From: Tubiluchus corallicola
Lineage: Eukaryota; Priapulida; Priapulimorpha; Priapulimorphida; Tubiluchidae
Reading direction: 5' to 3'
Length of the DNA: 64,000 bases
NCBI GenBank assembly: GCA_030141605.1
Contig: JAQGDQ010000110.1
Coordinates: 191,768 to 255,767 of the forward strand
Of the stretch, positions 28,906 through 56,254 are shown piece by piece. The notes beneath the pieces are model-generated. The model had not been told where the DNA came from. It saw only the letters and a program-made list of their open reading frames with translations, and searched no databases. The first letter of the stretch is position 1, and the number at the start of each line of letters is the position of its first letter. A program made the translations under genes and the position numbers.

Positions 28906-29802
28906 CTATCTAAATACAGAAACAGTATTTGGCTGAGAAGGCTTGCTCCTGTCTTCAGTGTTAACAATATTTGCTCGGCATAGAAGTTTCCTGAAACAAT
29001 GGCGGAAGTCCTTCATGAAGATAATGTAGATTAATGGATTCAGAATTGAATTTAGGTTAACGCTAAGTATTTTTATGATTCCACTGCCTTTTGTTTGCTT
29101 TTCTGTGACATTGGCTATTATCATGTGTAACACATTTGGTGCTATTAGTATCATTGAAGTAGCAATCACTATAGCTGACATTTTGGCTGTTTTTATTTGC
29201 CTTAGCACACCACTAACAACAGTGTTTCTTGGTTGTCGTTGTTTGACGACTTGGATGCTGGCGACTCTTCTTTGACGTCTCAGTGCTTCTGCAGTAATCC
29301 TTGTATAAGCATATATCATGAAAATCAGTGCTATAACGTTATGCGATGCGTAGAAGAAAATGTACCAAGGGCTAATCACTAGTGCTGAATTAGTACAAGA
29401 AACAAGTGGTGAGTAGCTAATAGCACTTTGTATGACCCAAACTCCACCCACCAGTAAAGAGTATGTCACAAAAATTCCAGCTAAGAAATTGAATTTTATT
29501 GATGTCACTTGTAACTTGTGATATTTTATAGGTTGAGTTACAGCAGCATAACGATCAAGTGTGATACAAGTGAGGAAAATCTCACTTAGAATAAACAGAG
29601 ATGCGAATAAAAATATTGATATATAGCAGTGCCACCTTGATATTAGTGGGTGTATTACAGTTTCTACAATTGTAAAGGGAATATCCCATAACACAAGTGT
29701 AACACCCCACATCAAATCTGTTACTGCTAAGTTAGCTAGTAATCTGTTGTGAAATGTTTGTAGGCACTTATACTTGTAAATAACACTTGATTTGTTAAGC
29801 AT
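28906..29802 (-). CDS. Class A GPCR paralogue lacking TM1 (298 aa)
   Basis: This is the near-identical duplicate of the receptor at 31952-32983, with an uninterrupted frame. Relative to that copy, 132 bp are deleted in frame, so MLNKS jumps straight to YKYKC. The extracellular N terminus, its glycosylation sites and all of TM1 are lost. TM2 (LLANLAVTDLMWG), the DRY motif (TLDRYAAVTQP) and NPxxY (SILNPLIYIIF) remain. The 5' flank matches that of the intact copy, so no alternative exon restoring TM1 is evident. It may be a pseudogene with a still-open frame, or an unusual six-helix receptor. The open frame is certain. Function is doubtful. Confidence 0.8.
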   Translation of the reverse strand: MLNKSSVIYKYKCLQTFHNRLLANLAVTDLMWGVTLVLWDIPFTIVETVIHPLISRWHCYISIFLFASLFILSEIFLTCITLDRYAAVTQPIKYHKLQVTSIKFNFLAGIFVTYSLLVGGVWVIQSAISYSPLVSCTNSALVISPWYIFFYASHNVIALIFMIYAYTRITAEALRRQRRVASIQVVKQRQPRNTVVSGVLRQIKTAKMSAIVIATSMILIAPNVLHMIIANVTEKQTKGSGIIKILSVNLNSILNPLIYIIFMKDFRHCFRKLLCRANIVNTEDRSKPSQPNTVSVFR

Positions 29803-31951: not shown

Positions 31952-32983
31952 TTACGGTCTGGTGACAGAAACAGTCACTGACTGAGAAGGCTGGCTCCTA
32001 TCTTCAGTGTTAACAATATTTGCTCGGCATAAAAGTTTCCTGAAACAATGGCGGAAGTCCTTCATGAAGATAACGTAGATTAATGGATTCAGAATTGAAT
32101 TTAAGTTAACACTAAGTGCTTTTATGACTCCACTGCCTTTTGTTTGCTTTTCTGTGACATTGGCTATTATCATGTATAACATATTTGGTGCTATTAGTAT
32201 CATTGAAGTAGCAATCACTATACCTGACATTTTGGCTGCTTTTATTTGCCTTAGCACACCACTAACAACAGTGTTTCTTGGTTGTCGCTGTTTGATGACT
32301 TGGATGCTGGCGACTCTTCTTTGACGTCTCAGTGCTTCTGCAGTAATCCTTGTATAAGCATATATCATGAAAATCAGTGCTATAACGTAATGCGATGCGT
32401 AGAAGAAAATGTACCAAGGGCTAATCACTAGTGCTGAATTAGTACAAGAAACATGTGGTGAGTAGCTAATAGCACTTTGTATGGCCCAAACTCCACCCAC
32501 CAGTAAAGAGTATGTCACAAAAATTCCAGCTAAGAAATTGAATTTTATTGATGTCACTTGTAACTTGTGATATTTTATAGGTTGAGTTACAGCAGCATAA
32601 CGATCAAGTGTGATACAAGTGAGGAAAATCTCACTTAGAATAAACAGAGATGCGAATAAAAATATTGATATATAGCAGTGCCACCTTGATATTAGTGGGT
32701 GTATTACATTTTCTACAATTGTAAAGGGACCTTCCCATAACACAAGTATAACACCCCAAATCAAATCTGTTACTGCTAAATTAGCTAGTAATCTATTGTG
32801 AAATGTTTGTAGGCACTTATACTTGTAAACAGCACATATAACTGTTACATTTAGAGAAATATTCACTGTTCCAACCAGTGTAAATATCACTAACATGACA
32901 ATTTTAGGCTTGATTACTTCACGTATTTCACTATTGAATTCATACTGGTCTTCACTGGTAGCATTTGCTGATTTGTTAAACAT
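31952..32983 (-). CDS. Class A (rhodopsin-family) GPCR, single exon, 343 aa
   Basis: A complete seven-transmembrane receptor and the intact member of the tandem pair. The N terminus carries FNKS and NATS sequons. TM1 (IVMLVIFTLVGTVNISLNVT) holds N1.50-type Asn residues. TM2 has NLAVTDLIWG. The TM3 Cys (RWHCY) can bond to the ECL2 Cys (VSCTNS). TM3 ends TLDRYAAVTQP and TM7 has NSILNPLIYVIFMKDFR. The TM6 core reads ILIAPN in place of CWxP, as in its paralogues. It is clearly homologous to the receptor at 23706-24767 but more diverged from it than from the 28906-29802 copy. Ligand unknown. Confidence 0.9.
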   Translation of the reverse strand: MFNKSANATSEDQYEFNSEIREVIKPKIVMLVIFTLVGTVNISLNVTVICAVYKYKCLQTFHNRLLANLAVTDLIWGVILVLWEGPFTIVENVIHPLISRWHCYISIFLFASLFILSEIFLTCITLDRYAAVTQPIKYHKLQVTSIKFNFLAGIFVTYSLLVGGVWAIQSAISYSPHVSCTNSALVISPWYIFFYASHYVIALIFMIYAYTRITAEALRRQRRVASIQVIKQRQPRNTVVSGVLRQIKAAKMSGIVIATSMILIAPNMLYMIIANVTEKQTKGSGVIKALSVNLNSILNPLIYVIFMKDFRHCFRKLLCRANIVNTEDRSQPSQSVTVSVTRP

Positions 32984-35037
32984 GATTACGATCCACTAGT
33001 TTCTGCGGTTTCAAAATTTTTACGAACTGTGAAACAAGTACTTTTAGCGGAGCTGCATGAAGCTCACACGAGCTGCAGGATGACTGATGTTTCTGTAAAT
33101 ATTGTCATGATGGCAGCAATAGAACGCATGCGTTTTCAGCTTTTTTCCCATTAGTGATAGAAGATGGCATGGCACTACTGGTTGAAGCCTAATCTCCAGA
33201 GACTTTCTGCAATACTGGAATTGGGAAGTTTTCATTGTTCCATTGTCGAGCATTTGTCTACTTTAATGTCTTTGTTTTCTACTTTTTTGATTATTTGGTC
33301 ATGATCAATGTATCACACAACTCCTTGATCAATGAATTAATAAATCTGTGATCGAGGTAGATCACGTACAAATTAAATAACTTTTTATTAACCAATTTTA
33401 ATTTGAAGATTATCAGTTAATAATCAAACAAACATACATAAAATTATTATTACATACAAACGATACAACAATTAAACAAAATGGAGTGGATAGGAATAAA
33501 ATGTTAGGAGTGTGAATCTGAATTTGAACCGGTGTCCCCTTTGAACCATTCCAACTTTTAATTTTGTGATTTTATACTGATAAACTATAGAACACCTACA
33601 TAATTCAGTAGTCTGTTGCTATTCTACATGCATTATATATGCTTAGTTACTGCGTAAACGAGACATTATGTGGAATGTTTATGCAGCATTGATTATTTGT
33701 GGGCAAATCTAATGGTCATACTATAACGAAAGTTCCTGCTTTTATTGTTGTTTTTGTGAGACCTCGCAAGTTAATTATTTTGCTAAGAAATCAGGCACTT
33801 GCAACTTAAGATTCATAGATATTGGTGACCGCATAATAGCTAAAATACCAACTCTAGCATTTGGTCTGGCCTGTTCTATATGTTTCACTTCTTGTGAGTT
33901 ATTATTGAATCATTAGTTAATCTGTAGAAAATTACCAAATTATGGCTATTTGCTATAACTGTAAAACTCCATTATTATCAAAGCATTACTCTTGTAATGA
34001 TTTTTATTATTGTTAGACTGATTGCAATTTGTAAAATAGAAACAGTGCATGCATTGCAGAACAACAACAATTTTTATTTCCTCCATAGTTAAAGACCACA
34101 CTTTGAACGCACACACTTTATACTCACTTCATTACGTTGCATTTTTATGTGGAAATGATAAATTACCGTATTCTTTAAATCTAGCAATATACCATTTTTT
34201 CATTTTAATCATAACTGATACATCCCTCGTTTTAAGAGTAACTGTCTTTTGAAACATCTGTTTTGGTGCTACTATTACTATCTTATTCTTTATTTTTAAC
34301 AGACCTGTTGCATACAAGTTGTTTAAGTGTTGGTGTCTACACGTGTTTGCTAGCCCGTGTGCTGAATCGTATACACGTGGGTGGTTTATTAACCAGTGCA
34401 TTGCTCGTTCGGTTTATTGACCAATGTGAATAATTTATTAAACGAAAACACTGCCACAATGATAGTGGTGGCATCTTGGATTACACGCTTTGCTTGTACA
34501 GCTCTAATCAAACTTAATTACTGAAGCCACAAGCTGCTGTAATATGAACCAGGTACTTATTCTGTCAACAATAAGAGCCTCTTGTTACCACGAAAAAATG
34601 GAAGTTTTCATCCCTGTGTAACAACAATGCTACATTATCCAGTTTTACTAATTTCAAGTGAAGTCCTTTCTAATTTATAAAGAATGAAATACATTTGAGG
34701 AATAATATTTTAAACAAATGAAGAACAGAATTTTCAGAAATGGGTTCAATTGAGATATTTGAAAAGAAACTGTGAAAAATAAAATTGCAGCCAAAGTTCA
34801 TTCAGCATTCAACCAAAAATTTTTCTGTAATTTTGTTTTGACCTATAGATCGCCATAATTATTTATATTGATTGTGTACAATGTGTATAAACGTTTTACA
34901 CATATACACATAAAGTGTTTTAGCATTCACTACAAATCTACGTGCATATATGGCATTGTTGTGACTATAGTGAAACACACTGAATGGATTTCAACACTGA
35001 GGTTGCCACTTGGCTTGTTTAATGGTCGCAATTTAGT

Positions 35038-36567: not shown

Positions 36568-39500
36568 ATGTTCGTTCACACAAGTCTGTGCTTGCTGGTG
36601 CTGTCATCTATTGTGCAAGCACATGTTCGTCTTGTGTATCCTCCTGCTAGAAAGTACGACTTTGACGCTTTGGACAACATTGATGGAGAGGCGCCGTGCG
36701 GGATGCCAAGAGGTAATCTGTGTTGTTTTTGTAGTAAACGTTGTTTATTTGAGTGACTGTGGCATTAGGCATAATTGGTAGGACTGCGTAGTTATGAATC
36801 GGAGTCAGTAAAAATCCTGCACACTCAAACTCATTAGTTTGGAAATGCCTCTAGACCCCTAATTAAGTGAGTTTTTGAACATTGTTTTGCATTACATGAA
36901 ATGAATTGCATTACATCCATTTATTAAGTTTACACTGCACACGTTTTCTTATAGTGTTGACTTGATGTGTCTTCATGTGCTGATGATTTATAAACTTTGT
37001 ATGTTACATATTGTTCTGTAGTAATTGTACACATTGGCACCGTATATAATAAATCTAAAAAAAATCCAAAAAATGAATTAATGGACAACCTGTGAAACAG
37101 AAATAATTATTTCTGTTTTTATTCCTGGTATTTTGAAGACACTTGAAGCCGATTTGCTTTTTTAATAGAATCTGTGTGCCATGTGGTTGAACCATTGAGG
37201 TGACTGCAGTGTCTCTTGCCTTTAATTGTACCTTATTGATTTTTAAATTATAGTGGCTATATAGTAGCTTTTTCGGGACGAAAATGTTCAGTTTAATGTT
37301 TTAACCCAGATTCTTAAAATGGAATAGAGTTCATATTTTAAGCACCCCAGAGTCAATAGAGTTGGTAGATCTTACAAATCCAAACAATGTTAGTAATAGA
37401 TGACAGCACTAAGTATTGTAGTGGAACTGTTTTTACAATGGGGAAGGGTTTGGCTTAGCAGGAGACCTAGCCTCATTTAATTTTTTAACAGCTCACTAGA
37501 TTAATGATATTCCACTGAACCTGCCATTGCTGGTTTGGATCTGCAAGAACTAGTCCAACGTGGTCCACACTTTACAGTTCCACATGGCTTGTCTGGTTAT
37601 GCAAAAATTTATCTAAGTATTTAATTTCTAAAAACAACAAACTTTTATTTCAAATATGTACGTTCATCTCTAGCATTTATATTTCTACTTACTAGTGTGC
37701 ACTTAGCCCAAATGAAATTGTAAGTCAACTTTTATGTTGGTCAAAAAATCTTTTGTAAAAATGAGTTAGTGCCAGCAGGCAGCTTCTGCTTTTTTCACGA
37801 CATTCTGACGTATCTTTTGATACACTAGAAGTAAAAAAGTTTTTCTGCTGACCTGGGAAAGGAAACCCAGAGGAACTTGAGTATTTGCTTGACCTAATCA
37901 TATTCTGGTCTGTTATCTGAATTCAGCATTTGTAACACTGATAATTCATTTTCTCGTATCTGATGCAGTATTTGCAAAGATAAGAGCACATTGCAAACTA
38001 TAAATGTAATCATAGGAGATGGTTGAATTATATCATAATAATAAACAAGTTCTAATGATATGTAGTTTTTCATTTCCTAATTTAGAACTTGTATATTAGA
38101 TAGTAAGCTTTATGCTAATACTATATTACCTCAAGAAATAAACACAATCATAGTAACAATGTCTGTAAATGCATTTCCTTCCATTTCCTTTTAGTTAAGT
38201 GCAAATGCAGTTCGCAAGGAGTGCTAAAAATCTTAACTAAATGCTGACCATAGTCATATATATATATCTACTGTGTACACAATAATTATTACATATGAGG
38301 TAAAGGAATTCTTTAATGAATTGATAGGCTAACGAAAAATAATCAGCACAGTAGCCATGCCAATGAACTCGGTGTAGTCACATCACTGCAATACAAATAT
38401 GAATACAATTGGGTAATAATAATATTAGGCTGACAGCTTAACATCTTCCTGCCCAGAGCTATGGCCGTTTTTACGTGACTTAACCAACTTATATGATATC
38501 AATTTGTCTAGGTCTTTTGACTTGCAAACTTTCATTATTGCATTTTACATCACTGATGCTTACCCTCGATTTGTAGTTGATTTGACCTATTTTCATACAT
38601 AATTTAGCTTGTTCTTTTCATACACATATACATTTATTACTGGGGCGAGCAGTAGTCTTACTGGCAAAAATGAAATTGTTTAGTATGAGTAACATTCAAT
38701 TCGTTGTTCAAAGTATTGCACATTTGCATTTCACATTTCACAAAACTGTTGTTTTACAGGATTTGGTCCGGTTACCATCCTCGAAGAAGGCTCGGATGTC
38801 AGTATGGTCTGGGACATGGCATGGACTGGACCAGCTTCACTGAGACCACTGCTGAATTACAGTATTGAATTGTTGGATGCTAGCGATCGTATCGTTGCCA
38901 CACTGGCACAAGCTAAATTCTTTGCTAAATTTGGAGATGATATCCCTGTAATGGCCAGAGTAGTGACCCTGCCTCAGTATGTCATAGGTAAATATATGCT
39001 GTATTCATAGTTACTTTAGCGGAAAACGTGTTTATTTTAGTGTTAAATTTGAACAACCAATTGTTCTCTAGCACGGTAGTGCCTGGCCACTAACGTAGTT
39101 AGCATCTTGCAAATGAAATTACTGAGGTGCATCAAATGCAAAATCTTAAGTTGTCAAAGCAACTTTTCAAGTTTGCTTACTGTTGAATAGGCAGTTATTT
39201 GGGTCATGCTAAAACCGTCTTTACTATGGATGAATAAAAAGTAGCCGAATCTAATGTAGATCAGTTTGATTTATGCCTTTAGCCTGGTTTGCAGCGATTG
39301 ATATGAATTCTTTTACTGAAATCTTTCTGCAGTGAAAAACCTGCACATGTTGTAACTTGCTTAGTGCGGCGATGATTTGTGGCTAAATTTTTCCCCGTTA
39401 ATAATCTGTTGCACTGATGAAGCAAGATCAATTCCAGCATTGAGTTTTTAATCAGCATCCTTTAGTTTGATTAAATACTCAGTTTGTGAAAACAATTAAT

Positions 39501-42500
39501 TTATTCTATTCACTTTTCACTTGTTTTTAAATTTTGTACTGTTTGTTAAATTAAAATCAGTTTTATATGCACAAAAAAGTTATAGTATGGAATATTTGAT
39601 GCAGATAAAAGGTGAAAGATGGATGATACAAACTGCAAACTTGCACAACACTACATGTAGGACTGTGTTAGAGATAGATGAAAAAAGTATGTGATCCACA
39701 AAATGATAAAACACAGAAGAAAACCTGATTTGTTAAAGTTGTTAGATACTGACGTTTTACTTAAAATTTAGTATTTACTAATTCCATAATCTTTTTTTTT
39801 GTAATGGTAGACATATGCACAGAAGTATGAAATAAGTTGAGCTAATTTTTTCACAATGTACTTATAGGTAATTACTTCACACTGAGGCTTTCTTCGATGC
39901 TACCAGAAAACATTACATTCTGGACCTGTGCTGACGTGAATATAGTACCACTAGGTATTTTGTCCTATAGTTTTAGAATAATACGTTTACTTGGTGGTAC
40001 AAACCCGCAACTATTTATTTAAATTTTGAAACCAAATTTCGAAAAACAGAAAATGTGACATGGATTCAAAGTGAATCAAAATTAAAATATATCATATTAC
40101 TTATTCTAAGCATTCTAAACATTTTACTGTAACTGTAAAGGATGAACTTTAGAATGTCTTGATGGCTGAGGAACATAGTAGTCCAGCAGTCTAAGGTATC
40201 TGCTTTGCAAGCAGAAGGTCCTGGGTTGAATTCCAGACTATGCTTGATTTTTTCACATTTCTGTTTCTCAAGTTTGGCTTTAAAAGTTAATTAATGGTGG
40301 GTTTATACCATCATTAATATTAATCGTGATATTAAGACAATAAATAATTAATATAATTACTTGTTTCGGGCTTTTCTTCTTGATAACGGGTCCTGGTCCT
40401 GTTATCACCATCAGCATAATAAATAGGTTGTGCCATCACTTGATGAATTGTAATTTTTCAGAGCATCAGATTGTCTGGAAAAAAGTAACATAACATATGC
40501 GTTTTTTTCTTGTATAATAAACCAGTTTGCATATTTATGTGAAATATGCTTTTAGGGCAGCTAAAACTGATCTACAATGGAGACTACTGCTCTAAGCATG
40601 GAACATTTGACAATGGGACAAGTACCTGTCGTTGCGAATACCTCTACTCTGGAGAGCGATGCCAATTCCTGGATGAATGTTGGAAAGACGGAGACTGTGG
40701 AGAAGGAAGAGGTACACATATCTCCATTTCATCAGCAAAATTGTTGTCGGTGCTAATATGGATTTTTATGTGAACACTTGACAGTGAGTGTAAAAATAGT
40801 CCTGTTTTATTTTTAAGGAAAATGCATTGATACGGGAATGATTGGTTCATATCCCAGAATGCAATGTTATTGTCATTGGGGATATTTTGGTAACAAGTGT
40901 GGTCAGGAGTCAACAGTGAAGAATCCCATGTACAATCCGGACAAATATCGGATCTTTCACCTCGGACGGTGGCTCACTCTATTCTGGAGAGTTTTACATC
41001 GTAATCCAGCTCAAGGCCGTTTTCAGGTATCAAGAATGTTAATGCGCTTAGACTACTAGTTTACCAAAGTTTTAGTAATTGTAGTGGTCTAACATGCGAA
41101 ATTTTCAGTAACTGTTTCATTTGCCGTACTGATTCTGGCTATTTACGTAGTCACATCAATGCATAGCTGAGACGTGCACCAGTTCAATGTCTTATCTTAA
41201 AGATTTGACCTTGATAATTTGCATGGTTTTGATCTTCCACATTGAACAGGACTTTCTACTGATTCCACGGCATTGGCTAACGTCACAAATTGTATAAAAA
41301 AAGAAATCATTTTTGTAGCATTGTGAGAACGGACAACAGGAAGCTGAAGTTTCATGTTAGTGCTGCCTAAGCTGTAAGTTGCTTATTAAAGTTTAGCAAA
41401 TTATTTTTTAACAAATTTATTTTAGAGCTGTTTTCTTCTAGGGTGAGGTAGAAATGATTTTACGTTCAGTGGGAGAAAGCTATGTTGCTTTGGGATGGCG
41501 ACCAAAAGGTAAACATAAGACACAGACATAATTTCTCTTAGATTTTTAAGCTAGTTTATGTAAAATTTATTTTAAAAATTAGATCTGTTTATTAGGAAAA
41601 TCATCAGAAGTTTAGTGCTGAATAAGTTCTTAAAATGTGTGCATTATAAAAGATGTTACTATGTTATTCTTAACTATATTGTTTTCCTTTGTTTTGCTTT
41701 TCCTTAAAGCAAATGAGGTGATATGTTATATATTATTCACAAACCTTGAATATTTTGAAAATGACATTTTTGTTATTCTTGTTGACCATAACATAGTTTG
41801 GAACATTATCACTAATATTTCATTAAGAGTTAATATTTATGCTAAACTTTGATTCATGTTTAGGATTGACAGTTAAATGTCAGGAGTTTCCTCGCTTGCC
41901 GAGTGGCTCCTACGGGGCAGATACGGGTACTGTAAATAGTAACGATCATAAGTCAACGCCATCGCGCAGCGGAAAGAAAAAACGGCGGAAAAAAACCAGG
42001 TGGAGTAAGACACATCCCCTTCATCCGATGGCTTGTACAGATATGGTTATTGGTGCTGCTAAAGGTGCTTTATTTACTTTTTTCCACAGTAATTAATTTT
42101 ATTGAAAAATGTAGCTAATAAAATTAAATCAAAGAGTTGGAATGGTGTCTCGTGTTAGAGAAATATTTGTTAATACTAAGATAGTTCTGCTACAACCATC
42201 AAATGTAAACAGACATTGCAGCTGAGTACTGGATGTCTGCCTGGAGATTGCCAAGCTAAAAGGTTTCGTACTTCAGGTAATTTAACACGGGTATTTGACT
42301 ATTATTCTTGGGACATGGCCACACCGAGAGTAGATGGATTTTTCGGTGGACGCGATGATCTGACAGCCGCAGTTGGTCACGAAGATGACGGAGTCACAAC
42401 TATACTTTTCCGAAAGAGACTCGTAGGTAGGTGCACTATCACTTTTGCTTCTCAGAAATCATTGTTCGTGTTTTTACTAAGACTTCCTTTTCCAAGATTT

Positions 42501-45500
42501 TGCGACACAGAATTAATTTCAACAAATTGATGCTATTAATTCGCATTGAAAGAACAGCTTTTAAAATTTGCACGTCATACTTGGGAATTTTGCGTATTTC
42601 TTTTATACTCGTACATAATAAAATCTACTGTCTATTAATGACAGCTAAAGTAATTATGCTCATAGAGTGGTAAAAACGCAAAAACGTTTGTGGCGACAAA
42701 GCCTATATTATTTAAAATGTTAATCGAATTAAGATAATAAATGTTCATAATATTGTGCATTATTGTACTAAATTTGAACTTATCCTGTGAGTTGATTTAA
42801 TTTTTTTACTAAGCCTTCTTTTTCCAAGACTTTTTGTCAGTATCATTTTCCATTTAATGTCAACCTAACTATTTTATCACCAACCTTGATTTTAAATTCT
42901 GTTCTGTTTTACTGAGGCTTTTGTTGCTTGAGTTATACGTTTATCTGCTTTGATTCAAATAGTTAGATACTGTGTCCTTGAATGACTTGATATCCATTTT
43001 TATGAAGTACTAAGCAAATATATGAATGGGTCCTTGAATGGTTTTTATTAAAGTACAAGTATTTCGGCACTTGCTTGAGTCAATTAGGGGAGGGCTTGTA
43101 ATTTTAAATTCTAAAATTCTAAATTATAGTTTGCATTGATTATGCTGATTGAGGCTCCCATAATTGGTATTTGAATTTCGAATGTTTGTATTTGTGCTTA
43201 TACGTATACTCCCAAAATATTTGTATTTGAATAAAAATCATGTATTGGTGCATTTGTATCTGCTTAGTAAATAAAATAGTATGTTTCTGTATTTTTATTA
43301 GCCATTTTTATTGTCTATATGAATTTCTAGTTTTTGCCAAGAACTAAATATCAAAGGTTATAATATAGTATAACGTATAATAGGTTAAAGTATAATTGCA
43401 ACAGTAACAGTTTGACTAACATGCTTAACCTCTTGCTGATGTACGATGAGCCACCTGTTATTTGTGGCAGGTGTGACCTAATAAACTAATTAACACCTGT
43501 CAGTGAAAACAGGTTGTTCAATTGCTATTGACACTGTTATTGTTTATGTTTATGTTTGTGAGCAAGGCTTTAATTAGTAATATTAACCTTTTTGATATTA
43601 AATTAGCACAGTCTGTAAAAACTTGTTTGTGTAAGTGGCAGTTTCGTTTAGGAAACCTGCTTTGTGGTTGTGTGTGTTCATTCGTAAATGTCAAGTTTCC
43701 TGTTTTAGTATACTGAAAATGGCAAGCCTTTATTACACGCTTCAAACAGAATGATACTAAAGAGCATCACAAACGGGATTAATTTACAGCTGAAAGTTAA
43801 CCCTTGATCACTAACTACTTGACTTCTTAAACTAGAACTTCTTCCTCTATAACGTATATACCTTTTTTAGCGGTGTTTAGTCACGAGTATTATAACCTGG
43901 CCAAAATTCAAATGTTATTGTCTCTGTTAGAGTGCAGTGCATGCAAATGTTTGCTGATCATAGTGTAGTCAAGATGCCTTGGGCAGCAAGTGACCCCAAT
44001 CAGTACAATGCTTTTGATTACCTTCAATTATCATGTTTGGCACTCTGCTTGGCTGCGGACTGTTTGTCAAGGTGACTAAGTGATTTGTATGAAAGGGAAG
44101 TTTGCATGAGGAATTTCTGGAAGACCTCGCACTTTATTAATTCGGGAGTTGTCCGTAGCTGAATTTTTGTCGTGGTGTGAAGTTTTGAAATTAATTATAC
44201 TCATCGAATCTCCATAGTTGATACAAAAACTTTAAAGAAATGTACAATATACAATAATAAATGTATAATATACAATATACTGTATATCTGATTTCAGAAT
44301 TGAGAATTTTTTTTTTAGTTTTTTATTATTACTGCTTACTGAGGCATAGAGTTCCTCCAATGTACGAAGTGGCGTTTATGTAGCATCCGGATTGCGTATG
44401 TGTTATGGGGGTGTGGAATAGGTCAAATCGGTTTATATTACTTTCAGTGCGCATGTTTATCTGACCTGCATTATGCTTATATTCTTCTGCCATTTCCTGT
44501 TAGTTTTTTTTCCCAGCTATCCCGCAGGTGGATAATGCATATGGCATTCCGGATGTTACATAAACGCCACTTAAGAATGTCAAAAAGAAGCTGCACAACT
44601 TATATGCATTATTTAAATTAAAAGGGAAAAACTGACTTTAGAAAATCTTTTTAATAGACCCAAAATGTGGCATTTGGAAAAGTAAAATGCAGAAATGAAC
44701 ATATTGTAATAATTAGATTGTAATTTTCTTTTAACACAATTCAAATGAAATCAAAGTGTTGAGTTCATCTTTATCTTATTGAGGGTGAAATTTGAGACAT
44801 CTTTGCAAGCTCTCATTTTAGGGATTAGCCTTGATTATTATGTGGTTTCCGGTTGAAACAGAACTATCAGGACTTGTGAGTCTTGTTAAATAGTTCTTAT
44901 AGTTGTTAAATACTACTTTAAAGAATGATTACTTGCATAAAATATCTACATGGATAAGCTTGCCCAGCTGAGAAGTCTTATTTAGCCTAGCAATCAAACA
45001 GCTTGAAAAATCAGGGAAACCTTAGATTACAATGTTGTGTGCCACCACCGAGTTCTACTAGTAATAATAGTAAATTGATTAAAAGTCCAATATGAAACAT
45101 TTACACAGTCTCAAATACAACTTGTGGGTTAGTGAAAGTATCTGTATTCATTTATTTTTGACCATAGTTAAAACTCCAAACTACACCTGTATTCTAAAAA
45201 CTTAGGATCCTTCAGTAACTGTGTAACATAGAAAATGGTTATTGCAAATAAGCTATATATTGAGTTATACAGAAACCACATTTTCTTTTTGCTTGTTTCA
45301 GCAACTGATGATGCTGATCACAGCATTCACAATACAGCCATGCATGTCATTTGGGCAGTGGGACGGGCATTCTACCACTCCCTGTACCAACCAGATCTGC
45401 TGAAATATCACGGTGTCTCAGCTGAACGGAGAGGGATGACACTTCTGAACTTTTTCAGCTCTGAGTATGGTAAATAGTTGTTTTGATACGTCGATTGTAC

Positions 45501-48500
45501 ATGTTGCTTGTAAATGGTATTATAGTTGTAACATTAAAATGTTATTAATGTATTGTATTTATGAAGATCAAAAGTTAAAGGATAAAATGCAATTTTCATT
45601 GTTAAATGCAATTTCATTTTGTCGTGGTATTCACTAATAATGGAAGTAAATACTGGGGACTTTTTGTGAAACATGATGTTAGTCAGTATGGGAAGTTTGT
45701 CTTTTGTAACGTCATGGTGTTAGAAATAGCGATCTCCATTAAATAATGCTAATTCTGGTTAATAAATGAGTGAGTGATTACTTGAAAATTTACTTTGGAG
45801 GCAGATATCGTATCACCTCCGTCGATTTATTTCGTTCATAAATGATATACAAGCAATCCAACATTTGTAAGATACTTTTAACAGTTCATTGTCTTGTGTT
45901 GAAGATTGTCCTGTATAGATTCTTGTCCTGCCACAAGTCTCATCGTATCAAACAGAACTTGCTATTCAGTGCTAGGTTTCATCTTGCAGTGTCAAACTCC
46001 ATAAAAAACAAACACACAAACCGTCCACAAGTTGACATATTTCAAACAGCGTTATGATGCTTCACACAGTGGAATGCACCAAAAATTTGTTGAAATGTCA
46101 AATTTTTTGCTTTTTTATAAAAACAAATGCTAAACGTATTGGATTTTTATATTCTAGCATGAAATTATCAAGAAAATGTTTAAAACATACTAAAAATTTA
46201 TTTTTATAACCCCATATCCACTTCTCTGACATGAAACTAGTAATGTAATTGTAAAAAACTTCAAACTCTGATTGTAGCTCGTGGAAGCTGTCATTTTTTA
46301 CCTGTTTTTTCTGTTGCCAAGCCCAGATCTTCATCAGGAAGAGCCATCTACTGGATTTAAACATAATTTCAATGTTCTCTTGCTTAGTTCGTAGCAACCA
46401 GCATTTGTGCGTTTGCTACGTGTTTTGTACAGACTCAACGAAAAACAATGGCTAACTTTAACAGCGATTTTCTCAAGGTTGTGTTTTTCAGTGTGCAGCC
46501 TGAACTTCAACTTCAACTTGGATTATCTCAGCTTAAAAATAACACAGAGCAATGAGCTTGGTATCAAAATGATCCTCATGAAAATGCTTAATTGCCCACT
46601 TATTTACGTTTCTGCTATGCAAGCACGCATATAGTTTTTTAGCTTGTTTGTTAGATTATGATTTTAGTTATTGCAGAATTCAAATAATTATGGTTAGCAT
46701 GTTTTTTAGAATTAAATGAAGCCTGTTATGATAACAATTGCCATAACCATGCAACCTGCTATGGACTCAGCAGAAAGAATTTCATATGTGTTTGTCCAGA
46801 AGGCTTTACAGGCAGTACATGTGATCAAGGTAAATGAGCTTCATATCAAGTTGAATGTTGCAGCAGCTTTTATATAATTTTTCTTAATATTATTCTTAGG
46901 TATTCTTAGCACATTTGTGCTAGACAACACACTTTCTAAGATTTAAAGGAGAAAATCATATTCTTCTGGTTTTGCTTTTTTCGCATTTTAGGTAGTTGTT
47001 TTACAAACAGAAACTTGTTACAATTTAGAGAGATTTTACTGTATCTCTTAGGCAAAATGTGGAAAAATTTCTTAAATTTGTATAAGTTTAGATGCATTGA
47101 AACCTTGAGAGATTTGACTGTATCTCTTAGGCAAAATGTGGAAAAATTTCTTAAACATGTATAAGGTTAGATGCATTGAAACTTTGAGAGATTTGACTGC
47201 ATCTCTTAGGCAAAATGTGGAAAAATTTCTTAAACATGTATAAGGTTAAATCCATTGAAACTTTGAAAATGCTCCAGCTTTGTGTTAATATTTAATTTGC
47301 GGCAAGGTATTGATGCTGATTCACTTGATACAAACATTAAAGCATGACAAGAATGTCTTAGTATTCAGTTTCGATGACTATTTTTCCATTATGCAGCAGT
47401 TGTCAAAGGCAGTTTAATTTAACTTCTTTTTATATGCTTTATTTTTCAGTTTTGGATCCTTGCGATTATCTAACTTGCAGGAACGGTGGCACGTGTGTTG
47501 CTGATGACAGCAACGATGCTCACTGCATATGCGCTGAAGGCTACATCGGAGTGGAGTGCGAATTTAGAACAGGTATATCTTACGTAAACACTGCTACATA
47601 CAGTACATACTTAGATTGTAAATTTCCAGTGTAAAGCTGTTGTTTAATTCTGCAAGTCATTTCCTGTAATTTTAGTTTAATTGTTTACTTGTTGGTTCAT
47701 TTATTGATTTATTTCAGTTATTTTTTGTTTATTTTTGTTCATTTATTCGTAGTATCTACAGCGCTACGGTCAGTGAATATAAGCACAACACGCTGTTCCG
47801 GTAGCTTCCATTATCCCCCAGAATGCACGGATAATGACTGTGTTTACAGAGCTTCTTGGGTCTACAATGAAACCATTGAATTTCTCATCGAAGCTAAAAC
47901 GTATGGTAAAACCTGGACTGGGATTGGATTCAACAAGCGACCCAGCATGGTAAGGTTTAATTTCATATTCTCTAATGTGCTAAAAATAGAGGCTATTTTA
48001 GCCATTTGTCAAAGATAATTCTCTGAGTTAAGACACTGTAATGGTTTACAAATCTTAACTAGTTTTTGATGTGTTTATGTCCTCTCTGAACATGCAGATA
48101 TTGTTAGAGGTAGCATTCAATTAAAACTGCTCAGAAACTGATTTTCTTGGTGTTTGTCTATTCTTTTATCGACCAGACTCGATGTTGCTTAAGTTTGATT
48201 GTTATGTTAGCACTTAGATGTTCTTCTGACGCAGAGAAAGTGTACCATAATTGTAACTATTGTAACGTATCTTTCTATACTGTCTAATCTATTCTGTTCT
48301 GTTCTGTACTGTGTTGTTATTACAGTTAAATGCAGACATAATAGTTGGTTGGGTCAGTGGTGGGGAGGTCCACGTGTCCAGTGTCACTGACCGTCATGTG
48401 TCCATGTTCTACATGAAGCCTGAAATAGATGAACAAATGGAGTGAGTAATTTTTTTCTTGCTACTTTTGCCTTGACAAGTGCTGTTACTTACGTGAACAG

Positions 48501-51500
48501 ATGGATAATATAGGCTGGAGGACTTGGCTTTTTTACAGTGTGGCATTCTGGAATTCAGCAGTCAATGGTTGATAGTTGTGCCCAGATCGAACCTAGCTAA
48601 TTAAGGATAATCCTATCAAGCTGATTGATTTGTAAGGCTGCCAAGAACCTGATCATTACTTAGTAACCCTTTGCTAAGCAATAGTGTGAAACAGAGAGGT
48701 TTCCTAAGCAAATTTGATGTACAGGTTGTCGGCGACTGATGACCTATGCAACTTACGACTGCTCGACCTTACCACCCTTTATTGAGGTTTATTAATTAAT
48801 TATACAAAACTAATTATAACTCATATTTCCTTCTATTTTTTAAAGCAAATTAATTTTAAATCGCTTTCTGTTTCGACGAATTTGTCCGTGGGAGCCTCCA
48901 TACTTAGTGCACATACACACGCAACATTGTAAGGGTAGGGGCGGGTCACTTGAACGTACGGGTCCGATGCATCCAAATCATCTTACGACCAATCAACTTT
49001 AACTTATTCTGTTTGTAAGTTGACGACTAGCCTTAAATCAGTGCATTTTTTTGCATTTGAAAAATGTTAAGCAGCTTAAAATTTGTGGAAACATTAAACT
49101 ACAAAGATATCTTTTTGTAAAAACAAAAACTTGGAATGGTTAATGTTGAATTTGATTTTTCATAAGAATAAAAGTTTTATAAAGGCTTGAACACTGATAG
49201 AGAGACTCTGGCCCTCCTTACTGAAAATATTTCTTTGCTAGTTTGTAAAGCTACATTTTCTCTGTTTGGTGAGATTCACTCTATTTTGTCCTTGTTGGTT
49301 TTAGTTACTACTTCAATGGCATTTACAACATACATAATTCTCTTATTGATGGTATCACCAAGATCAAATTCTCTCGTGATCTCAAGACTTGGGACAAACA
49401 AGACTTCTGGTTTGATGAAGACTGTGCCTACTTCTTGTTTCCGGTTTACGGAGGCATCTTTGATCTGATGACAGATTACATCGGCGAACATTCAGAAATT
49501 CCACTGATATCTTCAGAGAAAATTTGTATTAGTAGCTGTCAAGGTGCGTTATATTGCTTTTTGTTTAGTAAAATGTAGGAACAGCGTTTCAGTGCAAGAA
49601 CTCGTGATAATTAGTTGAAGCATTTGCTTAAGAGGGAAAGCCAAACTTTCTACAAAGTTAGGCTTATATCAATGTTTGCGATTTCGTGATGTATTTGTTA
49701 TATTGTTTTAAGTTTAAATGATGACAGTAAAATAAACCCAACATGCTAAATGACTTGTCCTTTCCTTTAAACTTTGTACCAGGACAATATATTGTTATTT
49801 TGCATCTATACTGGCTAATTTTATTTTTCTGCAAAACTGCTGTTTATTAAAATAAGCTGTGTTAATTATTCATGATCTTGCAAAAGCTTTTATTTGTTCA
49901 TGCTTTGTTTTATAACGTTGGTAAGAAAATCCTCACTCCATTGAGTGAAACGCAAGTGTGTCACCAAAAGTTAATAATCTTTTAACTTTAATTCATGTTT
50001 CTGTGTTTTATACAGAAATTACGGAAAACGTACCCATTCGGAAAATTCCAGAGGAAAAAACCGAAGAGGCACCACTTGGAGTTAGTGGTGGTATGTTAGC
50101 ATATATGTTACAGAGAGTGTGTAAAATTCAGACATTAATAAAATTCCTAGACATTTCATGTAGCACAGGAAAGGCATTTCAGGGAAAGTGTGTCATAAAT
50201 CTTTTGACTCACACTTTACCTAGACTCTGACAGTTAAATCACAAGTGTGAACTGCCTTACAAGTTACTGTCAGCAAGGAATTGCATACTCTATATACGTC
50301 TTGCAGTGAATAGAGAAGAAAGTGTCAGCTTACAGTCGGAGAGTATTCACCCTCTAGTATGAACATGCTTGCGAGTTAACATTAACAAAGAAAACTTGCT
50401 AGTGTGAATGCACCATTTCATAATATGCTAAACTAATGTGGTGGTTGGTGCAAAGTCACTATCTCTGACATGCTGCGCAATCAGGTGGATCACTTTTTAG
50501 GCGATTATCCTCTCTATGCTAACTATGTTATGGTCCTGCCACAACAATTTTGGCCCTGCTTTTGACTGCTAAATTTCAGCCTGCAGAATCCAGACAAAAT
50601 AAATAAAAATAATGCGACTCAGCTGACCATGGGAAAGTGGAAATACAGCTAATACTTATGAGCTCTTTATGTTTCAGGCTGCAATTTAACAAATTCAACG
50701 TTCGTCGGTAACGAAACGGTGGGAGAGATATCGTCACCTAATTATCCAACAGACGACTATCCTAACAGCTTGAGTTGTCTGTGGACTGTCAGAGTTGATA
50801 AAGAGAAGTACATTAAACTCAGCTTTATTGGTATGCTCGTTTTCACTTTTCTGTATCTATTTGTAGTTCTCAAATATGCCTACGACATTAACGCTTTTTT
50901 CTTATGTGTTTTAAAACAATGTAAATTCTTAGTAGTTAAATTTTTTGTGAAACTAGATTTCAGTTTCCCATGATAACTTGCTGTCTTGTGATTTAGTGCT
51001 GTTGAATTTATCATCATTCTGCTTTCACTGGTGTGTTAAATAATTCATTTCAGTCTGAGACTCTGATTCTTCTACAAATAATTTCATTTTTACAGATTTC
51101 TACACTGAGCCAAGTCATGATTATGTGGAAATTATTTCCCATAGTTCACAGTACAGCAACAGGAAGTTCTCTGGATTTAATTACCGTAAGTTTAAAGTTT
51201 GTCTACAGTTTGCTTGTTATGTATTTACTTACATTTGATGTGTTTGAATATCCTTATTTGTACATTGAGAAAGCAGTAACATTGTCTTCTGTTTAGATTT
51301 CACTTTGTGCTATTAAATACTTTTTTAAGTTAGTCATTGTGGTCAACTTAATAAATTTTTGACTGGTTGACTTGTCCTGTGAAATAGATAAGAAAATACA
51401 AAATATAGTTTTTGCCCTAAGATTTGAACCACATCTTCTGCATTCTGGCCTACTAATACTATTATAGGTATGGCTTTACGTGTACTGTTATTTGTATGAT

Positions 51501-54500
51501 TTTATCCTACTTGGATATCTGAAAAGAGAGCTAACTAATTAAACTGTGTTAGGATATTCAGTTAGTTTAGTCTGTCAACAAAGAAATTCAGTTTCTGGTT
51601 GACTTAAAATGAAACGTTTTTCTAAAAAGTTTGGTACTTTCTTATATTGTTCACATAATTGAATATATAGCTTATTAAATTAGATAACATAATCCTTCCT
51701 TTGTTTCAGCTATTTCTCTGATCAGCGATGGTCCAGAGATGCAGTTGAGATTTGTCACGGACAAATTCTTGACAAAATCTGGCTTCAAGCTACTTTACGA
51801 ATCAGTCAACAGCAACATCAGTACGTTGCGTCTTTTATCCTTTTATCAGCTGTTATATATTTTTGTTTTTTTCTGCTTAGGAATATAAAGATATTACTTA
51901 TTTTTTTCTTTTGTTATAGAAGAAGAGTTGAAAGCTCCATACAGTCATGTGCAGCAAATATGTTATTCAAGGACCTACGGTGGAATACATCCCTATATAC
52001 CTCCTACGTATACTGTAAGGTAAATTATGTGTTATATTATTCAGTTCAATGTTGTATTTTGCTGTTAAATTTTATTGTACAATTGACAGTATTCAGTACA
52101 CAATGGAGGGTTGTTTGATGTAGTTGTGTGTGGTGGGACTGGAACATAGCTTACTATCAAGATTGATCCTCTAAGATAATACAGTGAACTTGGGATACTG
52201 ATGTGTTTTAGCCTAGTTCGATGTGTTTGCATACTGTTATAACTGGAGGCATTATGGAAAATCAAACTGCTCAGTAACACCTCTACTAGCAGTCACCCAT
52301 CGATTTACTGACCATACCTAGTTTTGCTTAATTTTATACATTGTGATCACTCAGCTATTTTACTTGCATCTTGTTCGGCACCACTGTTTCATAGTTACTG
52401 TGATTATGATAACTGATAAGTAGCTACAAATTAGTTTTTATACTCTATAATCTACAATAATGCAAATTAATTAAAATGTCTAGTAGATAAGGGCGAAAAT
52501 TCAGTTAAATGCAGTGCTTGGCAAAGCACTACCTTTTGTGACTTGTAGGTCCTCTGTTTAGGCCTTCAGCTCGTAATAACCTAAACATTTATTATTAAGA
52601 TAACACTGCAGTTAGTTGACATGCACTTATGGATATTTTATTAATAAATAAAAGTGCTTTTAATTTCTCCGCTGCTGTTGAATCTTAACAGTACCCGACA
52701 CGTATAAGGAAAAGGGTGCCCAACTCTGAGTTTTGCTGCCTGTGTAAATGCTATTGATTAATGGTAAGAGCAAGTGTCTCCTCTAGTACAAGAACTTGTT
52801 TTTCTACAAGTATGTTTCACTACATGCACCCTGGCAACAAGTTCCTGCTTTTAAACTATATTTGTGCCACACTTAGGGTTACACGGAACTAAAACCATCT
52901 CAGGCGGTTGTAAGTGTGAAACCTGTTAATTCTACTTGTCAACTAAAAATATCTTTGATACGATGCAGTATTCGTTCAATGACTGGCATCTTTCTAAATA
53001 ACCCTGATGTTTAGTTTGTTGTTTACCCTGCAGCAGTTCTGATATGAATCAGGGAACAATCACATCTCCAGGATTCCCTTTTGCACTTCCCAGGGATCTG
53101 GACTGCCGCTGGATTATCACGTCATCAACCGTTGCCATCACTGGTCTTATTGGAGATCTTCCAAGTGGGACAATGGTCGTGCTATTCGGTATGCAGCCAG
53201 TTTCGTACTTTTTTGGAGAATTTCCTTCAGTATAAAATTTTTTTTCCGTTTTTACATTTCTTGTCACTGAAGTTTTTATTTCATAGTTCATTGTAGTGTT
53301 TTAAAAGGGTTGTCTCTTTTTTATTGTGGTATCTAATTTGATTTGCATGACAATTCCTGTATGCCACCTAGCATGGTCTTCGGGAATCTTGCATTCAGGA
53401 ACTTCATCTATTTGTGATGGACAAAAAAAACATGAAATTATGTTGTCTGGTACTTTGCATTTGGAAAACTTTGAAAAAGGCACTTGACTTGCTGTCCCAT
53501 AATAATCTGTTATTTTGCACTTTAGGTTCTTCTCAAACAAGTTTATTTTACTTTTACATTTTTTGTGACAGTCAAAAATCTAAATATCAATATTTTACTT
53601 ACTGTGTACAATGACCGCAACTAATGTGCTCTGCTCTGCATAAGCCAAATCTATGAGAGTTGAAGAATTATTATTAGAAAAACAAATTGTTGTTGCCAGA
53701 AGTTACATGATATAAACATGTCCGACCTACGTATGTGATATGAGCACGTCCGACCTACGTATGTGATATAGGTCTGCCCGATCTACGTATGTGATATAAG
53801 CACGTCCGACCTACGTATGTGATATAAGCCTGCCCGACCTACGTATGTGATATAAGCACATCCGACCTACGTATGTGATATAAGCCTGCCCGACCTACGT
53901 ATGTGATATAAGCACATCCGACCTACGTATGTGATATAAGCCTGCCCGACCTACGTATGTGATATAAGCACATCCGACCTACTATGTGATATAAGCACGT
54001 CCGACCTACGTATGTGATATAAGCATGTCTGACCTACGTGTGTGATATAAGCACGTCCGACCTACGTATGTGATATAAGCATGTCTGACCTACGTATGTG
54101 ATATAAGCATGTCTGACCTAGCTACACAAAAAATACAAATAAACTCATTAGGCCTTCAGACGTAGTATGAGACAACTAGAAATTCGAGTTAATCTGATAT
54201 GTGCTAGCTAGAGTTCACTCTGTGGTTACTGCTTCATTGCTTTGTATGACTTTAGTTGCTCATAGTTGGTCAGTTGTGACTTTTTGCTTTGTTAGTATTT
54301 CAAATGAAACATTTAAATTAAAGTTTGCAATTTCTCGCAGAGGGTTCCTGTCGAGATTTCCATACCTCGGAGGATCTTCCCTGCAAACCTTTGTTCACGT
54401 ACAAGGAGTCGTTTGCTCACGAGCCCACATCGTCATTGTATGATTCGGTCACCCTGCGTCTTTTAACAAACAAAGAGTATGGTGGCAAGAGCTACTCAGA

Positions 54501-56254
54501 CATTTCGGGAATGATTGGATTTCAGATGAAATATGAGATAGCAAGACACATAACCACTGCCAAGGTTGTTGAAACTTATGGTAAGATTATTGAGGAACAT
54601 CATGCTTAAAGGTTTATTTATATAAACTACGAGTTTCCCACAAAAATTTTGATAATTAGTTTTTTTTGTGTGGTATTGTATGTGCAAATAATAATGCCAG
54701 TCTGTGTCAATATATATTATGAAGAGTTGCTATGTAGTATTTTAGTGAATGGCAGATGTTTATAAGCCTGTTTTTTACAGATGAGGCCAAGTTAACACTA
54801 GGACAGTGGGCAGGGGTTGCCATTGCAATTATGATTGCAGTCATATTGTTTGTATTGACAGGATATGGATTTTACGCATGCTTTAAGCGCAAAAGGTAAA
54901 CACTTACTGTTTTTTTCATAGAAATACTTGGGTGATCGTACAGACAGTTTTCATTGTGTGTCATTTGACTAGTCAGGAAAGAACCTGAACAATGTGAAGA
55001 AGGTAGTCGTAGTTAAACTGAATAAAAACTACCAGTTATTATACGTTGTTTAGATTACGGTGTAGTGGTTCAGCACCCATAACTGGTGCTATCGAATCAC
55101 AGTTGGAGCATCATGCCACGCATGCAGTAGAGGCACCACCTGCCTATCGAGAAGCTGTAGATGACGAATCTATGCAAACGGAGGTGGGTATTATGAAAAT
55201 TGAAACAAATTGATTTACCGTGCAGCAATGGTCAGTTCACAAAAAGTTCAATAATTATTTTGGCAAAAAATAAAGAAGTTTGAGCTTGCGTTTCATTCAA
55301 CTGTTCAAAATTCAGCACTTTCTTAAGATGCTAGCTTTTTATTTGTGTCCGTCTGTCCGTTACAAGCTGTTACTCTACCTACCAATAAAAATTTAACTCT
55401 TTTATTATGTTTTTAGGCCCAAGGCACAGGTGGCACTGGCACTATCAATATTAAACTTCCTTCCTATGATGAAGTTTTAGCAATGGGCACCTCTTCAACA
55501 TCAGGTTTGAAATTAAGTCTTTTAGTAACACTTTCATATTAAAAAACAAAAACATTCAAAAGCCAATATCTGGTTTCTTTTCTTCCCAAAATGCATGGTA
55601 TGAAACAAGCTGAGAAATTTTTTTATTGTTGTTCACTTTACAGATGAATTCAGTGAAGACGCAGAGACCAAGAATGAAGAATTATCATCAGCATTATGTA
55701 GTCCTTCCACCGCAACCACGGCCATCGTTGACTCATCTGATGATGACGACGGCAACGATGTTGCTGGTGCGAGCCACCAGGGGGCTAATGTAATGGCTAG
55801 TCCTATATTCAATAGTCAAAAACATATGAACGTTGTAAGCATACCTCCGTCTCCTCCTTCCATACTGAAAGCTGGAAGGTACGCTTTGCCGCGACCGAAA
55901 AGTAGTGGGAAAAAAGTTCGAATAGATACACCGTTTAGTGATACGAACTGTAAAACCAATGGAATTACTAGTTCTACGGGTGTGGATCAGCCTCGCCAGC
56001 CCAAACTTTCCAAGCCTAATCCACCGTTAAGAAATGACAGCTTGCCTTGTTCATCATCTTCTGCCTCTTCAGATGAAGCTGCAGTATACACAAATAGTAA
56101 CATGGCCGATTTTGTAGACAATTGTTACGAGAACCTTGACGATTATGATATTGTTGATTATGATACTGCCGATTATGATGGTTGTTATGACAACACCTGT
56201 TGTGAAAGCGATCATGAGAACATGTACGAAGACATCGATGTTCAACGATTGTGA
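36568..56254 (+). CDS. Type I membrane protein: BIM1/X325-like copper domain, EGF, DOMON x2, CUB, TM
   Basis: 25 in-phase exons, 1357 aa: 36568-36712, 38760-38987, 39868-39954, 40556-40711, 40818-41026, 41442-41508, 41864-42064, 42277-42426, 45302-45469, 46710-46829, 47450-47572, 47753-47949, 48326-48441, 49305-49543, 50016-50090, 50678-50830, 51096-51185, 51710-51820, 51920-52019, 53034-53188, 54341-54580, 54781-54895, 55054-55183, 55417-55504, 55644-56254. A signal peptide (1-18) is cut before His19. Residues 19-160 (HVRLVYPPAR, APCGMP, FWTCADV) resemble BIM1/X325-type LPMO-like copper domains. Then come EGF-like modules (160-225), DOMON 1 (about 240-465; YVALGWRP, DMVIGAAKG), two EGFs (471-551), DOMON 2 (560-735; ADIIVGWVSGG), CUB (761-880), a degenerate CUB-like module (911-1043), TM (1053-1078) and a 279-residue tail with PPAY, LPSY and Tyr-rich acidic sequence. 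DOMON domains bind heme or sugars. A cell-surface redox or matrix role is inferred. Other introns, up to 2.9 kb, hold repeats listed separately. Confidence 0.87.
40160..40252 (+). repeat. tRNA-derived SINE fragment
   Basis: The block CAGCAGTCTAAGGTATCTGC, an anticodon-like hairpin CTGCTTTGCAAGCAG and a B-box-like GGGTTGAATTCC give a tRNA-like layout. It shares the wording GTCTAAGGTRTCTGC and the spacing with the sequence at 62483-62575, so both appear to be one SINE family. It lies in intron 3 of the DOMON/EGF/CUB gene. Confidence 0.6.
44367..44572. mobile_element. 206-bp MITE with about 40-bp inverted ends
   Basis: AAGTGGCGTTTATGTAGCAT at 44367 and the complement of the sequence ending at 44572 (AAGTGGCGTTTATGTAACAT) are inverted copies. 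Similarity continues through CCGGATTGCGTATG/CCGGAATGCCATATG. The interior has no coding content. No clear target duplication was seen. It lies in intron 8 (42427-45301) of the DOMON/EGF/CUB gene, which otherwise holds only AT-rich sequence. Confidence 0.75.
47027..47266 (+). repeat. 79-bp tandem repeat, 3 copies
   Basis: Three consecutive units begin AGAGATTTNACTGTATCTCT and include GGCAAAATGTGGAAAAATTT. The two right units are nearly identical and the left one is slightly diverged. The array is within intron 10 of the DOMON/EGF/CUB gene. Confidence 0.9.
51415..51475 (-). repeat. Possible tRNA-like SINE remnant
   Basis: On the minus strand GGTTCAAATC at 51430-51421 matches a B box and is preceded by GGCCAGAATGCAGAAG, loosely anticodon-arm-like. 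The A box is not clear. It lies in intron 17 of the DOMON/EGF/CUB gene. Confidence 0.3.
53707..54122 (+). repeat. 28-bp minisatellite with dimeric higher-order structure
   Basis: About 15 units of ACCTACGTATGTGATATAAG plus an 8-bp variable end fill most of intron 20 of the DOMON/EGF/CUB gene. The variable end is CACGTCCG, CACATCCG, CCTGCCCG or CATGTCTG. In the central part, CCTGCCCG units alternate with CAC(G/A)TCCG units, giving a 56-bp dimer, while the right end is dominated by CATGTCTG units. One unit has a 2-bp deletion. Confidence 0.95.

Follow-up and report, generated by a model that had tools for sequence, protein, structure and literature searches.

An LPMO-fold domain without its second copper histidine, joined to two DOMON domains on a predicted membrane protein of the priapulid Tubiluchus corallicola

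Can an animal carry, on one chain at its cell surface, both a copper-site domain of the lytic polysaccharide monooxygenase (LPMO) type and heme domains able to feed it with electrons? Fungi typically secrete their copper LPMOs and the heme partners that supply these with electrons as separate proteins. The question is raised by a 25-exon gene at positions 36568-56254 (forward strand) of a 64,000-nucleotide stretch of the Tubiluchus corallicola genome (GenBank assembly GCA_030141605.1, contig JAQGDQ010000110.1, positions 191,768 to 255,767), here called the window. An initial annotation, made from the DNA letters, had proposed that this gene couples a copper-site domain and heme- or sugar-binding domains on a single membrane-anchored chain. 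Our analysis retains one half of that proposal, an LPMO-fold domain on the same modelled chain as two DOMON domains, and discards the other, the copper site of the window gene. The explanation that we prefer, and to which we would give about an even chance, is that the gene codes for a pseudo-LPMO type I receptor or adhesion protein with heme-bearing DOMONs, belonging to an animal family of LPMO-cytochrome fusions.

Reading of the splice sites in the DNA gave one continuous frame of 1357 residues, whose sole stop lies at its end. The 24 predicted introns all have a GT donor and an AG acceptor, with consistent phases, the donor of exon 24 (GTTTGA) being weak. Every feature named by the initial annotation was found at this locus, and the exons are assigned as follows:

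36568..36712, + strand: exon 1, leader and mature start (H19-VRLVYPPAR...APCGMPRG) of the LPMO-like domain, from the frame and paralog matches
38760..38987, + strand: exon 2, core of the LPMO-like domain, with Gly at the site of the second brace His (WDMAWTG), from the alignment
39868..39954, + strand: exon 3, last part of the LPMO-like domain (F142-W-T-C-A-D-V), without the CxxC pair, from the alignment
40556-40711 and 40818-41026, + strand: exons 4-5, EGF-like region (sub-threshold EGF matches) and start of DOMON 1
41442-41508, 41864-42064, 42277-42426 and 45302-45469, + strand: exons 6-9, DOMON 1 with M353, H451 and the basic insert GKKKRRKK, from Pfam and the alignment
46710-46829 and 47450-47572, + strand: exons 10-11, EGF pair, from Pfam
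47753-47949, 48326-48441 and 49305-49543, + strand: exons 12-14, DOMON 2 with M617 and H718, from Pfam and the alignment
50016..50090, + strand: exon 15, linker, from the frame
50678-50830, 51096-51185 and 51710-51820, + strand: exons 16-18, CUB 1, from Pfam
51920-52019, 53034-53188 and 54341-54580, + strand: exons 19-21, degenerate CUB-like region (Pfam, 14.1 bits, cut-off 21.4)
54781..54895, + strand: exon 22, predicted transmembrane helix and KRKR stop-transfer, from hydrophobicity
55054-55183, 55417-55504 and 55644-56254, + strand: exons 23-25, predicted cytoplasmic tail, in which PPAY occurs once and YxxPhi four times (YDEV, YENL, YDIV, YEDI)

The order along the chain is thus leader, LPMO-like domain (residues 19-153), EGF-like region, DOMON 1, EGF pair, DOMON 2, linker, CUB 1, degenerate CUB, membrane helix and tail, as had been described before, the first EGF-like region and the second CUB lying below Pfam cut-offs. 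The hydrophobic leader, judged by eye, ends in V-Q-A directly before His19, in agreement with the earlier view of a leader cleavable just before a His, and the LVYPPAR, APCGMP and FWTCADV motifs are where they had been placed. Both DOMONs exceed the Pfam cut-off of 32.7 bits (PF03351; 45 bits for DOMON 1, 74.6 for DOMON 2), the EGF pair at residues 472-551 scores 56.9 bits and CUB 1 scores 69.1, and the EGF-like region at residues 154-236 is weak (EGF_2, 19.7 bits against a cut-off of 22.1). Besides the leader, the sole strong hydrophobic stretch covers residues ~1048-1078 and is followed by KRKR and by a tail of ~280 residues, in which PPAY stands at 1110. No DM13, dehydrogenase or b561 domain was found among the 13 Pfam families listed for the whole rebuilt protein. 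Two tandem repeats lie in introns of the gene: a 28-base minisatellite of 14.8 copies in intron 20 (53708-54120), and a 79-base unit present three times at 95% in intron 10 (47028-47266).

Is this architecture peculiar to one locus? When the 343.5 Mb assembly was searched with the N-terminal 233 residues of the window protein, the first exon found matches at C821 (65% identity), at C648 (54%, as at C1192, which appears to be a second copy of it), and at C1627 (47%). At C821, C648 and C1627, EGF and DOMON exons come after the first exon on the same strand, giving at least three further genes with the order LPMO-like domain, EGF, DOMON; the contig of C1192 ends after the third piece of the LPMO-like domain, before the EGF, and a short contig, C1062, appears to begin inside a gene of the same family. 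The N-domains of C821 and C648 were assembled exon by exon, as was that of C1627 apart from one residue. Exon phases are concordant among these three genes; the window copy lacks two introns common to them and has one intron located elsewhere. Because this order repeats at three loci, and because LPMO and BIM1 families were matched by none of four reversed and four shuffled N-domains (which gave a single unrelated match, at 0.26), the architecture is more than chance. In C648 a candidate membrane helix with WRKEKR lies 4.4 kb past the last DOMON match (composite position 28477), so membrane anchoring may be common across the family.

The initial annotation had related the N-terminal domain to the fungal X325/BIM1 proteins. 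What stands of this relation is the fold, discussed below, and a sub-threshold match of the window domain to the Pfam BIM1-like family (PF20238; 20.5 bits, cut-off 27, profile positions 3-122 of 140); by sequence, as seen through the paralogs, the nearest relatives are instead the bacterial SCE4755 family. The NCBIfam model of that family, NF043005, matched C821 with 40.5 bits (2.6e-10) and C648 with 31.5 bits (1.6e-7), C1627 not being among the queries; since both scores lie below its cut-off of 75 bits, these domains are related to the SCE4755 family and are not members by that rule. The Pfam matches of the paralogs were all sub-threshold: LPMO_10 (19.5 bits), BIM1-like (14.2) and DUF7490 (11.2) for C821, Kre9 (15.7) and BIM1-like (13.3) for C648, and LPMO_10 (17.1) for C1627, where PF20238 was not listed. 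With PF20238 sub-threshold or unlisted in all four copies and NF043005 far better for C821 and C648, X325/BIM1 was rejected as the nearest family. Kre9/KNH was also set aside, as it appeared at 0.026 in C648 only and did not turn up in the other three copies. Searched exon by exon, the genome gave no matches to PF20238 or PF03067, and NF043005 reached two exons (C1627 and C821), both below threshold; such searches are too insensitive to show absence.

Bacterial relatives were drawn with the pattern CxxCTLQ..Q.M, which gave at least 80 loci (116 stretches) among the matches listed. From 84 open reading frames with the pattern, 64 domains were cut, some with extra upstream residues, and 41 remained after filters for length, start and 80% identity. 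The records are of the Myxococcales type, Acidobacteria and Proteobacteria; in Nannocystis (loci L055, L062, L072, L091) the SCE4755-type genes stand as close neighbouring pairs. All 41 domains match NF043005 at E <= 0.001, while at E <= 0.01 39 match LPMO_10 and 28 the BIM1-like family, and among known structures their profile found AA15 (5msz, 4.7e-5), AA13 (0.0045) and, more weakly, AA9 and AA10 chains. A hidden Markov model (HMM) of the 64 domains (search space 20000) recognised C821 (6.8e-11), C1627 (9e-9) and C648 (6.8e-7), whereas four reversed copies did not appear even with the limit set at E 100. Compared profile to profile (hhalign), the four animal N-domains and the bacterial set align over columns 1-131 of 136 with a probability of 99.1 and an E of 9.1e-19. 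Searches of PDB sequences with the window domain, C821, an alignment (A1) and DOMON 1 returned noise only. Viral and genome pattern scans with an alignment (A3) gave no matches, probably because they were keyed to PPARxY and YALDFLD, stretches that are missing in the bacterial relatives; phages gave no match either.

The fold supposed for residues 19-160 was borne out in a structural model. Predicted with 31 of the 41 filtered bacterial domains in its alignment, the window domain gave a mean predicted local distance difference test (pLDDT) of 83.1 and a predicted template modelling score (pTM) of 0.77, and in this model residues 19-153 form the LPMO beta-sandwich. The top VIA-align match was the AA15 LPMO TdAA15A (5msz; Z 12.8, 2.5 Å, 125 residues, 18% identity), the first aligned pair being 1 and 1, and the second was LaX325 (6ibi; Z 11.3, 2.8 Å, 118 residues). 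AA10, AA16, AA13 and AA11 proteins came after these, and rows 1-20 were all LPMO, LPMO-like or X325; the first row of another kind stood at rank 21 with Z 9.9. Spo0M, RhoGDI and similar proteins, at Z 9.2-9.9, are read as sharing a common beta-sandwich. The model is not independent of sequence homology, since the bacterial homologs in its alignment shape it.

Does this fold hold copper? In the joint alignment the first brace histidine is His in 4/4 animal copies and in 41/41 bacteria, in the latter by construction, the rows having been cut at a His, just as the two Cys, TLQ, Q and M are fixed by the pattern. The column of the second histidine (His2), which like Arg54, Tyr129 and Cys132 lies outside the pattern, holds His in 41/41 bacteria, in C821 and in C1627, Asn in C648 and Gly in the window gene. 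C821, C648 and C1627 retain the CxxC pair; the window copy has Gly and Phe in its place. The column of F142, which from LPMO structures together with the AA15 alignment we take to be the axial copper position, has Tyr in 41/41 bacteria (a residue that, with Cys132, is favoured by the end-cutting rule of an aromatic before Cys), Phe in the window copy, C821 and C1627, and Gln in C648. Arg54, invariant in bacteria, is kept among the animal copies only in C821. Since residues 1-160 of the window protein have histidines only at positions 4, in the leader, and 19, a two-histidine brace within this domain is impossible in the protein as modelled, and a motif scan of introns 1-3 found no alternative exon with His2 or CxxC. 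X325/Bim1 is described in one review and one research paper as fungal, with copper on His, His and Asp (PMC10952591, PMC7529816), a ligand set that the window domain cannot supply as its second His is missing. The working copper site once assigned to the window gene must accordingly be given up, but to judge from the alignment the copper reading would stand for its sisters C821 and C1627, which have both His and an aromatic axial residue.

Each of the two DOMONs retains one Met and one His that could together serve as ligands of heme b. In DOMON 1, M353 (in HPM-x-C, or HAM-x-C in C648) and H451 (in YHG) are present in 5/5 family members; in DOMON 2, for which there are eight sequences, M617 is kept in 7/7 and H718 in 5/5 of those covering the site, the rows being exon pieces of which two from C648 may be parts of one domain. 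The two DOMON sets align by hhalign with M353 on M617 (E 2.9e-5, probability 73.6); the alignment stops before the His, so H451 and H718 are paired by place alone, and within the family rather than against a known heme DOMON. The Met-His spacing is 98 in DOMON 1 and 101 in DOMON 2. DOMON 2 scores 16.6 bits against the cellobiose dehydrogenase cytochrome family (PF16010, cut-off 27), and among PDB sequences it found dopamine beta-hydroxylase at E 0.5 only. For the plant DOMON protein HYP1, one study gives M90 and H174 as modelled b-heme ligands, by comparison with cellobiose dehydrogenase (PMC10784544). Heme b binding by DOMON 1 and DOMON 2 is plausible. Other DOMONs were seen elsewhere in the genome: six places (C1831, C1974, C2072, C2074, C2107, C1752) share an identical DOMON score (44.9 bits), span and 95-codon frame and are perhaps a recently copied DOMON-bearing sequence, and a separate cluster, C1453:31326-51278, has four strong DOMON matches in 20 kb, with open frames of 268-481 codons.

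We propose that, in a family of animal proteins, EGF units join an SCE4755-type LPMO-fold domain to DOMONs. In the intact members C821 and C1627, a histidine brace at the tip probably binds copper, and the DOMONs of these proteins probably carry heme b and would be able to pass electrons to the copper tip. The window copy is most likely no longer a copper monooxygenase, since the second copper His and the CxxC pair were lost while the whole frame remained open. Its protein would act at the cell surface as a receptor or in adhesion, the pseudo-LPMO tip and the CUB binding glycan or matrix, the heme-bearing DOMONs forming a redox- or heme-sensitive stalk, and the PPxY and Yxx-Phi motifs of the tail perhaps serving trafficking or signalling. 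This role is favoured because a copper ligand is missing from the tip while no stop breaks the frame, and because elsewhere in the genome the CUB-membrane-tail part is matched once, and weakly. A broader proposal, which we hold tentatively, is that animals have a family of copper monooxygenases that are bound to the membrane and draw electrons from heme domains of their own chain, in which C821 and C1627 would be the working members and the window gene a pseudoenzyme branch turned receptor by the gain of CUB domains and a signalling tail.

Several results weigh against these proposals. The window N-domain had no NF043005 match in NCBIfam, which returned only two weak, unrelated matches (0.056 and 0.13); its E against the HMM of bacterial domains was 4.9, not significant, and the full-length protein was not listed. 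With such weak scores of its own, this domain is placed in the family through its paralogs and through a model made with the help of bacterial homologs. A model of the domain from its single sequence was poor (pLDDT 46), and the fold search with it gave no significant match (best E 0.13). The Foldseek list was mixed, with two matches at E <= 0.001, an LPMO at the top (2.6e-4) and an agarose-binding module (3.8e-4), and other beta-sandwiches close behind. Finally, the CUB-transmembrane-tail part has, elsewhere in the genome at E <= 0.01, a single weak match (C41, 2.8e-4, 42% over ~56 residues), which limits the receptor reading to the window copy.

Among the alternatives, the one that survives best, although we consider it unlikely, is a pure adhesion or matrix receptor, in which the LPMO fold, DOMON, EGF and CUB would all be binding modules with no metal. 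The absence of His2 and CxxC from the window copy and the presence of EGF and CUB modules agree with it, as do two reports, one in which type I membrane DOMON proteins with no known chemistry are up-regulated at coral settlement (PMC3204972) and one in which Knickkopf DOMON proteins organise chitin (PMC11354708). However, no family sequence that reaches these sites in DOMON 1 or DOMON 2 has lost the Met or the His, residues for which a plain binding module would have no need. A window protein that still binds copper through a mono-histidine site, formed by the N-terminal amine, His19 and a non-His ligand, and that would work in copper uptake or, together with the DOMON hemes, in redox chemistry, seems to us more doubtful still. 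His19 does stand directly after the leader, the axial position is occupied by F142, CADV retains its Asp, and YcnI, which belongs to bacterial copper transport, has been described as a mono-histidine brace (PMC10952591); but the bacterial relatives are uniform in having His2, the window domain has no further His, and one sequence cannot support any replacement ligand. That the LPMO-like exons come from a neighbouring secreted gene is very improbable, for, although intron 1 measures 2 kb here and, as we assembled it, ~29 kb in C1627, four of the five first-exon loci (window, C821, C648, C1627) have EGF and DOMON exons downstream on the same strand, the contig of the fifth (C1192) ends, phases agree where genes were assembled, and the window frame is free of internal stops.

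How does the preferred pseudo-LPMO receptor compare with known systems? The SCE4755 proteins (NF043005) share with its family N-domain homology over near full length, with the N-terminal His, P..R, PCG, the W before the second His, CxxC and CAD; the window copy differs in lacking His2, the invariant Arg and CxxC, in having Phe for the axial Tyr, and in its fusion to EGF, DOMON, CUB and a membrane anchor. AA15 LPMOs, which one paper records in arthropods, molluscs and cnidarians (PMC5823890), have in TdAA15A the same fold and a mature N-terminal His, whereas the window copy has no second copper His, a shorter domain and another architecture. The X325/BIM1-like proteins (PF20238, LaX325) resemble it in fold and in the weak profile match, and are set apart by the score below cut-off and the missing second His; Bim1 moreover reportedly has a glycosylphosphatidylinositol anchor (PMC10952591) in place of a transmembrane helix. 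The cellobiose dehydrogenase cytochrome (AA8, PF16010) and plant CYBDOM/AIR12 proteins also have a DOMON-type domain with a Met/His pair, but neither the dehydrogenase nor b561 was found in the rebuilt window protein, and its PF16010 score is sub-threshold. The coral type I membrane DOMON proteins (Acropora B5) have a DOMON, a single membrane pass and an extracellular bulk, and the accessible text on them mentions no LPMO-like domain (PMC3204972). Knickkopf has the order DM13-DM13-DOMON, unlike the window protein, in whose 13 listed Pfam families there is no DM13. The family resembles the fungal pairing of LPMO and cytochrome, but with both on one animal chain. No animal LPMO-DOMON protein was recognised, by title or start of abstract, among the literature matches listed, in a search that covered few subscription papers. 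Each part is of a known kind; what is new is the fusion, together with the occurrence, inside a single animal family, of some copper sites that are intact and others that are broken.

Elsewhere in the window, three intronless frames of rhodopsin-type G-protein-coupled receptors lie on the strand opposite the 25-exon gene, at 23706-24773, 28906-29814 and 31952-32995 (- strand; Pfam 7tm_1, 1.1e-32, 3.4e-23 and 4.6e-26, respectively), the latter two being near-duplicates by eye. Such receptor genes, like the EGF and CUB modules, are in keeping with an animal source. An open frame of 418 codons at 10913-12169 (- strand) had no Pfam match at 0.001.

What does this gene mean for the animals that carry such proteins? 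The window gene would put an LPMO-fold domain together with two probable heme domains on a single chain at the surface of an animal cell, and among the sister genes of this genome some copper sites are intact and others broken. This opens the questions of whether self-fed copper monooxygenases are put to work by animals, be it on their own matrix or on their food, and of whether an LPMO-fold domain can be reused as a receptor tip after the loss of its metal.

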